Below, piece by piece: positions 22,723 to 26,079 of a stretch of 64,000 bases of DNA; positions within the stretch are counted from its first letter, which is position 1; each line of letters starts with the position of its first letter. Both the position numbers and the translations under genes were made by a program. The notes beneath the pieces are model-generated. The model saw only the letters and a list, made by a program, of their open reading frames with translations. It was not told the origin of the DNA and made no database searches. The stretch is taken from assembly GCF_003254055.1 (NCBI RefSeq), contig NZ_QKZT01000002.1, positions 186,001-250,000 of the forward strand, in the 5' to 3' direction. This stretch comes from Algoriphagus chordae. Its GTDB lineage: Bacteria; Bacteroidota; Bacteroidia; Cytophagales; Cyclobacteriaceae.

Positions 22723-22796
22723 TTTACAAGAATCTTTAAAAACATATGCTGAATTGTATTCGATCTCAAAGGTTTATTATAAGACACTTCCACCAT

Positions 22797-22864
22797 GCAT
22801 ACCTACAGGATGCTAATTCAAAACTTATCCTCTTTGCTACAGACCAGCCGTCCCAATGGGACGG
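22797..22864. repeat. outlying hairpin pair of the REP-like family (types A and B)
   Basis: GCATACCTACAGGATGC (22797-22813) and CCGTCCCAATGGGACGG (22848-22864) match the A and B hairpins of the array at 23972-25970, with the CTACAGACCAG flank before B. This pair lies left of the truncated transposase copy. Confidence 0.75.
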
Positions 22865-22905
22865 TTTCTGACTTTGACGTCACATTCTATTTTTTATTCT
22901 TGTTT

Positions 22906-23260
22906 ATTCATTATAATTCTACCTACGATTACCCCAGGGGGGGGGTAATTCGTCTGTAGAGAATCATACCGAACCGAAGCCCCAACCTGTAGGGTTGGCT
23001 GGTGGTAAAACCATAACCACTGTCCATTAGTCTAGAAACTATCACTGCAAAGATCGAATTCAAACCAAAACTCCTTTGCTTTCTGATTCTGGAGGCCTTT
23101 TTCATTCGCACATTTCCTTGAAAATATATGCTTCGTTGTAATCTATTTCAAAGGCTCTAAGTAGCTCCCGATATTCCGTTAAGAAATCTTTTTTAGTATG
23201 ATGAGCCTCCTGATTAACGATGTAGGAAATGACCTTGGATAGTTGACTTCTGGAATGAGA
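22906..23260. repeat. left copy of a 345-355-bp tandem duplication
   Basis: It is directly repeated at 23263-23607 (offset about 357 bp) with a few substitutions and a small indel. Each copy holds a C-type hairpin with a run of C/G (ACCCC/GGGGT), a D-type hairpin (CCAACCTGTAGGGTTGG), about 100 bp of unique spacer, and the 3' end of the IS200-like transposase gene. Confidence 0.9.
23102..23260 (-). pseudogene. truncated IS200-like transposase (3' end only)
   Basis: These 53 codons match the C-terminus of the intact transposase at 23449-23913 and end at the same TGA. The N-terminal HUH part is missing, so it is non-functional. It was produced by the tandem duplication that also copied the downstream hairpins. 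Confidence 0.9.
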
Positions 23261-23262
23261 AT

Positions 23263-23607
23263 ATTCATTAAAATTCTACCTACGATTACCCCAGAGGGGT
23301 AATTCGTCTGTAGAGAATCATACCGAACCGAAGCCCCAACCTGTAGGGTTGGCTGGTGGCGAAACAATAACCACTGTCCATTAGTCTAGCACTGCGAAGA
23401 TCGAATTCAAACCAAAACTTCTTTGCTTTCTGATTCTGGAGGCCTTTTTCATTCGCACATTTCCTTAAAAATGTAAGCTTCGTTGTAATCTATTTCAAAG
23501 GCTTTAAGTAGCTCCCGATATTCCGTTAAGAAATTTTTTTTAGTATGATGAGCCTCCTGATTAACGATGTAGGAAATGACCTTGGATAGTTGACTTCTGG
23601 AATGAGA
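23263..23607. repeat. right copy of the 345-355-bp tandem duplication
   Basis: Second copy of the segment at 22906-23260. Here the transposase reading frame continues upstream into the intact gene, so this is the parental copy. Confidence 0.9.
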
Positions 23608-23913
23608 AAACGCACCATAACCATCCTGCCACGCAAAAGGAAATGAACAAAACCCTTCTCGTTTGATCCACTTTGTTGATTCGGATTTGACATTCCCGAC
23701 TATAGATGAAATAGACTGATCAGGATTTAGACCTATAAAAATATGAATGTGGTCAGGCATGCTGTTGATTTGAATCATTTTGTGCTTGTTCTTCTGAAAA
23801 ATACCTGTCAGGTATTTATGGAGTCTTTCCTTCCAACTTTTCTGTATGGATGCATTTCTAAATTTTACAGCAAAAACAATATGCACGTAGAGTTGAGTGT
23901 AGGTATTAGCCAT
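23449..23913 (-). CDS. IS200/IS605-type Y1 transposase (REP-associated transposase-like)
   Basis: The 154-residue protein carries the HUH motif in SMPDHIHIFIG (metal-binding His-x-His) and a C-terminal helix with the likely nucleophilic Tyr in YIVNQEAHH, as in TnpA of IS200/IS605 and RAYT proteins. It should nick and join single-stranded DNA next to hairpins. No TnpB partner gene is present. Hairpins of the array family flank it on both sides: C and D just past its 3' end (23289-23353), A and B just upstream of its start (23972-24038). This fits hairpin recognition by the enzyme. The gene appears intact. Confidence 0.92.
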   Translation of the reverse strand: MANTYTQLYVHIVFAVKFRNASIQKSWKERLHKYLTGIFQKNKHKMIQINSMPDHIHIFIGLNPDQSISSIVGNVKSESTKWIKREGFCSFPFAWQDGYGAFSHSRSQLSKVISYIVNQEAHHTKKNFLTEYRELLKAFEIDYNEAYIFKEMCE

Positions 23914-23971
23914 GATTATTTGGGATACGTTTCACATAAAAACATCAATTTATGTATAATTTTATCACCAT

Positions 23972-25970
23972 GCATCCCTACAGGATGCCGATATCACACG
24001 GACATTTATACTACAAACCAGACGTCCCGATGGGACGACTTGAATCGCCAATTTGACTTCTTAAAGTTATATTCTCTGCTTCTTCCGCTAACACAGTTCA
24101 TTGCTTGCCCCAGCGGGGCAACTCGTTTGTAGCAAACATGTCCAATCGATTTCCCAACCTGTAGGATTGGCTCGTGAATAATTATACGACAATACCATGC
24201 ATCCCTACAGGATGCCGACTTCCCACAGATATTTAGGCTACAAACCAGACGTCCTGACAGGACGTTTTCGATGGATCATCCACACATTCCAATGCTTTTC
24301 CCCACGCTTATTCCAAATAAAACTCAATTCTACCATTGCCCCAGTGGGGCAACTCGTTTGTAGCAATCAGCTACCGAACCGGATTCCCAACCCAAAGGGT
24401 TGGCTCGTGAATAATTATACGACAATACCATGCATCCCTACAGGATGCCGACTTCCCACAGATATTTATGCTACAAACCAGACGTCCTGACAGGACGTTT
24501 TCGATGGATCATCCACACATTCCAATGCTTTTCCCCACGCTTATTCCAAATAAAACTCAATTCTACCATTGCCCCAGTGGGGCAACTCGTCTGTAACAAA
24601 CATGTCCAATCGATTTCCCAACCAGTAGGATTGGCTCGTGAAAATCACACGACACCACCAAGCATCCCTACAGGATGCCGACTTCTCACGGAAATTTATA
24701 CTACAAACCAGACGTCCCGAGGGGACGATTAGAATTCCCAATTACAATTCATAATAGATATATTCTCTAATTCTTCCGCTAACACAGTTCATTGCTACCC
24801 TTGCCCCAGCGGGGCAACTCGTTTGTAGCAAACGAGTCCAATCAATTTCCCAACCCTTAGGGTTGGTTCGTGAATAACTATACGGTACAACCATGCATCC
24901 TTACAGGATGCCGACTTCCCACAGATATTTAGGCTACAAACCAGACGTCCTGACAGGACGTTTTCGATGGATCATCCATACATTCCAATGCTTTTCCCCA
25001 CGCCTATTCCAAATAAAACTCAATTCTACTATTGCCCCAGCGGTTAACTCGTTTGTAGCAATCAGATATCGATCAAATTCCCAACGAATAGGATTGGCTC
25101 GTGAATAATTATACGACAATACCATGCATCCCTACAGGATGCCGACTTCCCACAGATAATTATGCTACAAACCAGACGTCCCGAGGGGACGATTAGAATT
25201 CCCAATTACAATTCTTAATAGATATATTCTCTAATTATTCCGCTACAGCAGTTCATTGCTACCATTGCCCCAGTGGGGCAACTCGTTTGTAGCAAACATG
25301 TCCAATCGATTTCCCAACCTGTAGGGTTGGCTCGTGAAAATCACACGACACCACCAAGCATCCCTACAGGATGCCGACTTCTCACGGATATTTAGGCTAC
25401 AAACCAGACGTCCTGACAGGACGTTTTCGATGGATCATCCACACATTCCAATGCTTTTCCCCACGCTTATTCCAAATAAAACTCCATTCTACTATTTCGA
25501 TTTCCCAACCTGTAGACGACAATACCATGCATCCCTACAGGATGCCGACTTCCCACAGATATTTATGCTACAAACCAGACGTCCCGAGGGGACGATTAGA
25601 ATTCCCAATTACAATTCTTAATAGATATATTCTCTAATTCTTCCGCTACAGCAGTTCATTGCTACCATTGCCCCAGCGGGGCAACTCATTTGTAGCAAAC
25701 ATGCCCAATCGATTTCCCAACCCTTAGGGTTGGCTCGTGAAAATCACACGACACCACCATGCATCCCTACAAGATGCCGACTTCCCACGGATATTTAGGC
25801 TACAAACCAGACGTCCTGACAGGACGTTTTCGATAGATCATCCACACATTCCAATGCTTTTCCCCACGCTAATTCCAAATAAAACTCCGAGCTACCATAG
25901 CCCCAGCGGGGCAACTCGTCTGTAACAAACATGTCCAACCGAATCCCCAACCTGTAGGGTTGGCTTGTGA
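23972..25970. repeat. tandem array of about nine 231-bp composite hairpin units (REP/BIME-like)
   Basis: Each unit holds four short hairpins in fixed order: A (GCATCCCTACAGGATGC), B (ACGTCCTGACAGGACGT or CGTCCCGAGGGGACG), C (TTGCCCCAGCGGGGCAA) and D (CCAACCTGTAGGGTTGG). B is preceded by CTACAAACCAG and C is followed by CTCGTTTGTAG, so C is an inverted B-type element and D an inverted A-type. A hairpins start at 23972, 24199, 24432, 24662, 24895, 25126, 25358, 25529 and 25761 (spacings about 227-233 bp, except one of 171 bp where the C hairpin is lost). Two different B-C spacers largely alternate along the array. Open frames across it are chance products. Confidence 0.92.
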
Positions 25971-26079
25971 AAAAATGCGTACCAAACATTTTTTACCTAC
26001 AAATACCAATTCAACTTGAATTTCGTGTTCCATTTATTCCAATTATTTATACATTAATGAAAACAAAATAATTATCTAT

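Follow-up and report, generated by a model that had tools for sequence, protein, structure and literature searches.

Organisation of the locus

The window analysed here is a stretch of 64,000 nucleotides from Algoriphagus chordae (contig NZ_QKZT01000002.1, positions 186,001 to 250,000), and the element under study is a tandem array of composite hairpin units adjoining a gene for an IS200-like Y1 (HUH) transposase. The window sits on a 407-kb contig of a 5.19-Mb genome, and its gene order is common to A. aquimarinus DSM 23399, with a DNA identity of 78-86% in long aligned blocks. The repeat region occupies an intergenic position between a dehydratase gene and a dehydrogenase gene and contains, from left to right, a diverged unit (U0), a fragment of the transposase gene, a C-D half-unit, the intact transposase gene on the reverse strand and nine units (Table 1). 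The array is probably an amplified cluster of non-autonomous elements resembling repetitive extragenic palindromes (REPs) and belonging to the adjacent transposase, which would bind and cleave them.

Thirty-two perfect hairpins with a stem of at least 6 were found in 22781-26000, whereas 40 dinucleotide shuffles averaged 0.25 and never exceeded 1, in agreement with the first-pass annotation of this DNA, which had reported about nine tandem composite units beside a Y1 transposase. Stems of 7 or 8 are present in 17 of the 32 and stems of 6 in the other 15 (the RNAMotif rule in PMC6006769 takes a basal stem of at least 7 nt). The nine-unit array proper covers 23972-25963, within a wider hairpin-bearing region at 22797-25963. 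Units, which start at their A hairpins, follow the order A, B and then inverted B'-A' (named C and D), with the stems GCATCC..GGATGC (A), CGTCC..GGACG (B), TTGCCCC..GGGGCAA (inverted, C) and CCAACC..GGTTGG (inverted, D). B and C bear tags of the CTACAAAC type on the side facing outwards. Of the earlier description of units of about 231 bp with four 17-bp hairpins, the arrangement and the length stand (227-233 bp), but the hairpins are mostly 15-19 bp long, degeneracy affects several copies of C and D (in units 1, 3, 5 and 7), and unit 7, without hairpin C and most of D, measures only 171 bp.

Two spacer types, largely alternating as had been claimed, are distinguished: alpha in units 1, 4, 6 and 8, and beta in units 2, 3, 5, 7 and 9 (order alpha, beta, beta, alpha, beta, alpha, beta, alpha, beta), units being 87-97% identical within alpha and 83-94% within beta, versus 68-80% between the two. 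Since units differ by 3-32%, false multiplication of identical copies in the assembly is unlikely. Tandem Repeats Finder detected periods of 233 bp (6.0 copies) and 463 bp (3.0 copies), a 403-bp repeat at 25113-25888 with 96% matches, and a 347-bp tandem duplication at 22905-23608 (2.0 copies, 93% matches) that takes in part of the transposase gene. Related hairpins do bracket the transposase, with U0 and the C-D half-unit on one side and the nine units on the other. Hairpin B of U0 bears the tag CTACAGACCAG, and its hairpin C includes a run of nine G at 22940-22948, a likely slippage site.

Table 1. Features of the repeat region and its neighbouring genes (positions in the window)
Feature	Position	Strand	Hairpins and remarks
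IlvD/Edd-family dehydratase gene, 572 aa	20949..22667	+	left neighbour of repeat region
U0, diverged unit	22797..22998		A 22797-22813 (imperfect), B 22848-22864, C 22928-22949, D 22982-22998
Transposase-gene fragment, last 57 codons	23105..23275	-	88% protein identity to residues 98-154; within 347-bp duplication
C-D half-unit beside transposase gene 3' end	23285..23352		C 23285-23303, D 23336-23352
Intact Y1 (HUH) transposase, 154 aa	23449..23913	-	DHIH, WQ, Y115-IVN-Q119-EA-H122-H123
Unit 1 (alpha)	23972..24170		A 23972-23988, B 24023-24037, C 24105-24121, D 24154-24170 (imperfect)
Unit 2 (beta)	24199..24403		A 24199-24215, B 24249-24265, C 24336-24352, D 24387-24403
Unit 3 (beta)	24432..24634		A 24432-24448, B 24482-24498, C 24569-24585, D 24618-24634 (imperfect)
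Unit 4 (alpha)	24662..24866		A 24662-24678, B 24713-24727, C 24801-24817, D 24850-24866
Unit 5 (beta)	24895..25097		A 24895-24911, B 24945-24961, C ~25032-25047 (degenerate), D ~25081-25097 (degenerate)
Unit 6 (alpha)	25126..25330		A 25126-25142, B 25177-25191, C 25265-25281, D 25314-25330
Unit 7 (beta, shortened)	25358..25515		A 25358-25374, B 25408-25424, C lost, D truncated
Unit 8 (alpha)	25529..25733		A 25529-25545, B 25580-25594, C 25668-25684, D 25717-25733
Unit 9 (beta)	25761..25963		A 25761-25777 (stem 5), B 25811-25827, C 25900-25912 (stem 5), D 25947-25963
Short-chain dehydrogenase gene, 253 aa	26080..26841	+	right neighbour of repeat region

Hairpin tag, pairing and doublet spacing

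The hairpins share the tag CTAC-NN-AC[CG]A[AG] at a fixed distance from the loop: of 101 occurrences of CTACC upstream of hairpins (both strands), 94 stand at -18 relative to the loop, and position -12 accounts for 74 of 152 occurrences of ACCA and 61 of 79 of ACGA. When sites near the gene were picked by the 11-nt tag alone, 58 of 74 had at least 6 of the 7 positions paired in the fixed register and none did so after sliding by 1 to 4 nt, while 0 of 10 tag-only sites far from the gene paired in that register. Eighteen different 5' arms occur among distinct sites, so that pairing is preserved though the stems change, and 344 of 427 cells are paired versus a maximum of 273 in 1000 shuffles, relatedness between sites inflating these counts. 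In recognised A-B doublets both hairpins point the same way, and 49 of 50 doublets have a centre-to-centre distance of 47-54 nt; the distance from B to inverted B is variable (22-182 nt). The exact tag pattern used for searches misses true sites, as it matches 10 of the 17 tag-only sites in the window.

Transposase and its clade

The transposase matches Pfam Y1_Tnp (6.1e-29) and scores 75.1 bits against the NCBIfam IS200 model (NF033573, cut-off 55) and 29.5 bits against REP_Tyr_transpos, under the cut-off of 80. Residues D54, H55, H57, W95, Q96, Y115, Q119, H122 and H123 are invariant across 31 aligned proteins. With the confidently predicted structure (pLDDT, predicted local distance difference test, 90.8) as query, Foldseek gave ISDra2 and IS608 TnpA as its top-ranked matches, with E. 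coli TnpAREP (4er8) in 30th place, and a sequence search for solved structures had ISDra2 and ISHp608 among its matches, 4er8 being absent.

For the comparison of transposase loci, 100 loci were used, consisting of the best 80 of at least 560 matches to one query and 20 hand-picked places; the motif Y---Q--HH is present at 98 of them. Hairpins with a CC-loop-GG apex numbered 267 in the 190 kb within 1 kb of the gene, versus 2.8 when these near flanks were shuffled; the 494 kb lying 2-5 kb away contained 23. On a tree of 101 proteins, built after the hairpins had been counted, 48 of the 50 rows of the clade containing the window have at least two hairpins within 1.5 kb, versus 13 of the 51 others (p 3e-14), the clade having a support of 89 in the Shimodaira-Hasegawa-like approximate likelihood-ratio test and no bootstrap. 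Tandem repeats with at least two hairpins are likewise present at 18 of 50 clade loci versus 1 of 51 others. The claim that the hairpins belong with the transposase is also supported phylogenetically, and the outcome that the first-pass annotation had named as refuting it, a lack of phylogenetic relation between the two, did not occur: the label "at least two tagged hairpins" requires 18 changes on the tree versus 31.1 in shuffles, 0 of 500 being as low; the label "untagged hairpins only" requires 18 versus 20.1, with 50 of 500 as low, and is not clustered. Many hairpins at clade loci bear no recognised tag.

Contig titles in the clade include Algoriphagus, Dyadobacter, Pedobacter, Mucilaginibacter, Flavobacterium, Terrimonas and Chitinophagales; one row (L120) comes from a contig titled as a Streptomyces griseus metagenome-assembled genome, a label that is probably wrong, and rows L055, L056, L057 and L072 of the tree have long branches and an unsure placement. 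A Sphingobacteriales metagenome-assembled genome contains, beside the transposase, a 49-bp tandem array of 6.2 copies (L075:4557-4861) made of single tagged hairpins in one orientation, and the module can amplify in this form too.

Copies in the genome and in other Algoriphagus

A genome-wide count, proposed in the first-pass annotation, gave 37 matches to the exact tag-plus-apex pattern at seven places in the window's genome and 0 for the reversed-pattern control. DNA similarity had suggested an array unique to the window site, which was overturned by the six further places. Contig C3 has a tandem array with a 302-bp unit, contig C9 two tandem arrays (299-312 bp and 290 bp) and C22 an A-B doublet repeated three times at a spacing of ~480-508 bp; C14 contains one A-B-B'-A', and C24 ends in a C-D half-unit. 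No Y1 match was found on these five contigs. The C22 place is a more complex repeat that includes other elements: at L158:4050-5450, an A-B doublet and further palindromes make up a ~490-bp repeat, and one of these palindromes, GTAGCCCCAGGTTTTAACCTGGGG, has the look of a double-foot REP and is present again in A. aquimarinus. Downstream of the C3 array, a stretch of ~150 bp (L154:6179-6324) has counterparts at many A. aquimarinus places, accounting for a large share of 47 matches (best 84-89% identity), and represents another dispersed intergenic repeat family.

The A. aquimarinus genome has 14 tag-pattern matches, with 2.5 units at the window's locus versus nine, and 14 hairpins versus 28 at the first C9 place, which was matched also in genomes G028 and G019 (four genomes in all). 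The C14 unit is common to both species and is 95.3% identical between them, spacer included (L157:4093-4327, L178:4004-4238), the adjoining genes being 86.0 and 89.2% identical; this high identity could be due to constraint or to recent exchange. At the C3 and C22 places, no tagged hairpin lies between the matching flanks in A. aquimarinus, loss and original absence being indistinguishable there. The comparison covered five places picked for hairpins in the window's genome (the second C9 place and C24 were not among them): hairpins are more numerous in the window's genome at four and equal in number at one; three further A. aquimarinus places (L174-L176) were left out of the reverse look-up. 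These copy-number differences look like turnover and not like a fixed structure. Elsewhere in the comparison, genome G009 has a unit-transposase-unit arrangement where G019 has one unit.

In A. aquimarinus (G058:C30), a ~9-kb block lies between hairpin units (L177:5383-14572) and contains seven open frames with Pfam matches (LAB_N/PMT, glycosyltransferase 2, DUF347, outer-membrane beta-barrel, PepSY-like, histidine kinase and response regulator), for which a DNA search of the window's genome gave only short repeat matches; recombination between hairpin units may have moved or removed it.

All five same-genus genomes with a transposase of at least 61% identity hold a tag match, versus 7 of the 31 without one, the matches in G008, G014, G034 and G023 having been accepted uninspected. 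Copies thus outlive the gene or occur without it.

Copies in other genera

The tag pattern was found in 13 of 18 further clade genomes, with 123 matches (summed by hand from tables, as were the seven places above) versus 1 for the reversed pattern, and in 0 of 4 non-clade genomes. In Flavobacterium notoginsengisoli, a 91-bp doublet query gave 40 matches at 23 places, comprising 13 B'-A'-A-B pairs (25-34 nt between matches in 11 of the 13), one longer run, one A-B-B'-A' and eight seemingly solitary doublets. Six of these eight have an inverted partner of another stem type, partial in one case (the frame is B'-A'-A-B at five, where some copies have an imperfect hairpin, and A-B-B'-A' at one); of the remaining two, L205 is clearly a solitary doublet and L221 is degenerate with no visible partner. 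In Dyadobacter sp. LHD-138, a C-like hairpin stands downstream at 11 of 15 anchored sites and a perfect D-type hairpin at 7 of 15. In the window's genome and in these two genera, the usual dispersed form is thus an inverted doublet pair in either frame, and solitary doublets are rare.

Comparison with known systems

The transposase carries the motifs of TnpAY1 subclass 1.2, a class assignment made by motif and not by the published hidden Markov model. In the cited passages of Quentin et al. (PMC6006769), this subclass is found in Bacteroidetes, has ~150 aa, a low copy number and the motifs DH[IV]H, WQ and Y---Q--HH, all of which agree with the window protein and its host, whereas the 2018 table gives REP as "no" and here one clade of transposases has cognate hairpins. 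No recognisable description of hairpins of subclass 1.2 was found in the open-licence literature, subscription papers being outside the scope of the search.

The first-pass annotation had invoked REP elements with RAYT (REP-associated tyrosine) transposases, and canonical membership of that group is ruled out: the protein has Y-IVN-Q-EA-HH, i.e. Y---Q--HH, where the cited passages of PMC6006769 give Y---NP as the hallmark of class 2 (TnpAREP/RAYT), it scores below the REP_Tyr_transpos cut-off, and GT[AG]G was found 0-2 nt 5' of the stem in 0 of the 32 window hairpins on either strand. Canonical REPs have GT[AG]G at the foot, whereas the tag here places CTAC 14 nt before the inner stem, and each half of the repeat is a doublet of hairpins in the same orientation. 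The likeness to REPs, BIMEs (bacterial interspersed mosaic elements) and REPINs (REP doublets forming hairpins), as these appear in the cited passages of PMC8266576, PMC3116915 and PMC6006769, resides in short 5'-tagged hairpins, a low-copy Y1 gene and intergenic dispersal; as in BIMEs and REPINs, the hairpins form inverted pairs that are both dispersed and clustered in tandem. The repeats behave like a REP/BIME system, yet lack some of the features that define canonical REP/RAYT. A long, regular array of this kind had been called unusual; it is long, but not new in kind, since tandem REPIN clusters beside a transposase are known, the largest in the cited passages of PMC3116915 having four units (P. 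fluorescens SBW25). The name RayT is also used in Chryseobacterium (PMC11194056), in passages that mention no hairpins.

With IS200/IS605 elements (IS608, ISDra2), the system shares an IS200-type TnpA, the nearest solved structures by sequence and fold, and hairpins with conserved 5' feet, comparable to the 5' guide sequences of the cited passages of PMC8266576. It differs in having two hairpins per end instead of one, and one full gene copy accompanied by many repeat copies without a gene. CGTC-tagged palindromic repeats (PMC3733652) are also short palindromes reported in Bacteroidetes, but in the cited passages their CGTC is unpaired and no transposase is associated, whereas here CGTC, where present, lies within the stem and the association is strong. 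A known RNA family was rejected, the only Rfam matches up to E = 1 being snoR11 and mir-2002, far under the gathering scores. Integron attC sites and CRISPR were rejected from the sequence alone, without a search, the tag being unlike the attC core-site consensus.

Proposed mechanism and alternatives

In the reading that we favour as probable, that of a cluster of REP-like elements belonging to the transposase, the module is a doublet whose A and B hairpins point the same way, ~51 nt from centre to centre; both have a conserved AC[CG]A[AG]-like 5' foot, and CTAC stands seven nt before the B stem region. Doublets are joined as inverted pairs (A-B-B'-A' or B'-A'-A-B), the gene, if present, standing in the A'-A junction. 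Recognition and cutting of single-stranded DNA are suggested by the fold, the conserved catalytic residues, the conserved 5' feet and the constant spacing: TnpA would recognise the single-stranded hairpins, most simply on the lagging strand, use the 5' feet as guides and cut near CTAC with its tyrosine, which would let composites spread to new intergenic sites. In the dispersed copies of Flavobacterium, the 5' side of every hairpin has a high information content, which drops just 3' of B; this, together with the 5' guide sequences described in the cited passages of PMC8266576, suggests that the A-to-B strand is the recognised one. Adjacent direct units could then be multiplied by one or two at a time through slippage or unequal recombination, which would produce the alternating spacer types; tandem duplication is the simplest route of array growth given the two-unit periodicity, the 403-bp repeat and the 347-bp repeat with part of the gene.

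Several observations weigh against this reading. The sampling of the 100 loci is biased, with close relatives over-represented, and the 50-row clade was delimited on a tree already showing the hairpin labels. Within that clade, the tag rule finds an A-B doublet at only 23 of 50 loci and a complete A-B-B'-A' run at only 5 of 50, and 5 of the 18 further clade genomes are without an exact tag match, while some of the matches in the seven same-genus genomes without a close gene are real hairpins. No exact empty site was found, the C3 intergenic flanks failing to align between the two species and the C22 place being the complex repeat described above. The assemblies consist of many contigs, so that array lengths may be wrong, and the edges of the duplications detected by Tandem Repeats Finder are not at the tag, so that array growth need not involve the transposase.

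A broader proposal is put forward tentatively, being in our judgement doubtful: a Bacteroidota lineage of class 1 (IS200-like) TnpA would, separately from the class 2 RAYTs, have become low-copy partner to REP-like repeats of its own, and the repeat would be a four-hairpin composite whose ~51-nt same-strand doublet represents minimal, cargo-less left and right single-strand ends, able to build long arrays. Our estimate was lowered because most of the seemingly solitary Flavobacterium doublets had an inverted partner.

An unlikely alternative, though the best of the rivals, is that of a relic satellite, in which the hairpins are the decayed ends of an old IS200-like element, the transposase is inactive on them, and only slippage and homologous recombination change the arrays. 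The arrays and solitary units on contigs without a Y1 gene are as expected in that case, as are the persistence of copies at matching sites across species (the C9 place in four genomes, the C14 place in two), the two-unit periodicity and the inclusion of part of the gene in the 347-bp duplication. Decay does not agree with the retention of pairing, tag and A-B spacing across genera, with an intact gene whose nine catalytic-motif residues are invariant in the aligned proteins, or with the difference in presence or absence between close species.

More improbable still is an ordinary IS200-like insertion sequence (IS) with two-hairpin ends, consisting of gene, C-D and A-B, whose internal deletions would have left the B'-A'-A-B copies as miniature inverted-repeat transposable elements. 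The gene does pass the IS200 cut-off, its place both in the window and in relatives is the D-A junction, and the commonest dispersed form in Flavobacterium is the gene-less version of the same frame; however, no near-identical second full gene copy was found in the window's genome, and the dispersed copies of that genome and of Dyadobacter are A-B-B'-A', unlike the frame of gene plus ends. Very improbable is a DNA or RNA structure kept by host selection (mRNA 3' protection, termination or nucleoid binding), which the intergenic position and the C14 unit, more conserved than its adjoining genes, could indicate, but which agrees poorly with copy numbers that vary widely at matching places, with two places devoid of tagged hairpins in the sister genome and with the lack of any Rfam match near threshold.

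The cited passages of the published Y1 classification (PMC6006769) give subclass 1.2 neither IS nor REP features; cognate hairpins for which tag, spacing and host range are defined make its role directly testable. If the reading of a REP-like cluster belonging to the transposase is correct, partnerships of transposases with REPs are not confined to class 2 but extend to the IS200-like class, and the repeats, which at matching sites range from one composite to nine tandem units, provide a natural series for studying the growth of REP clusters.

Paralogues and distant relatives of the transposase

The window's genome contains four more full-length paralogues of the transposase (38-50% identity) and one 88% fragment. 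Plasmid relatives are present in 106 records, all under 60% identity (best Bernardetia 53%, Persicobacter 39%), and viral contigs gave two partial relatives. Two paralogue loci of the window's genome have hairpins of their own: GTAAGGCTGGAC[TTCA]GTCCAG on either side of the Y1 gene at L055 (contig C16), and repeated GACCC and CCCCCAGT hairpins at L057 (contig C19). Upstream of a related transposase at L062 (G041:C18), hairpins with a four-nt loop, CTGTGCC[TAAA]GGCACAG, are repeated at ~700 bp.

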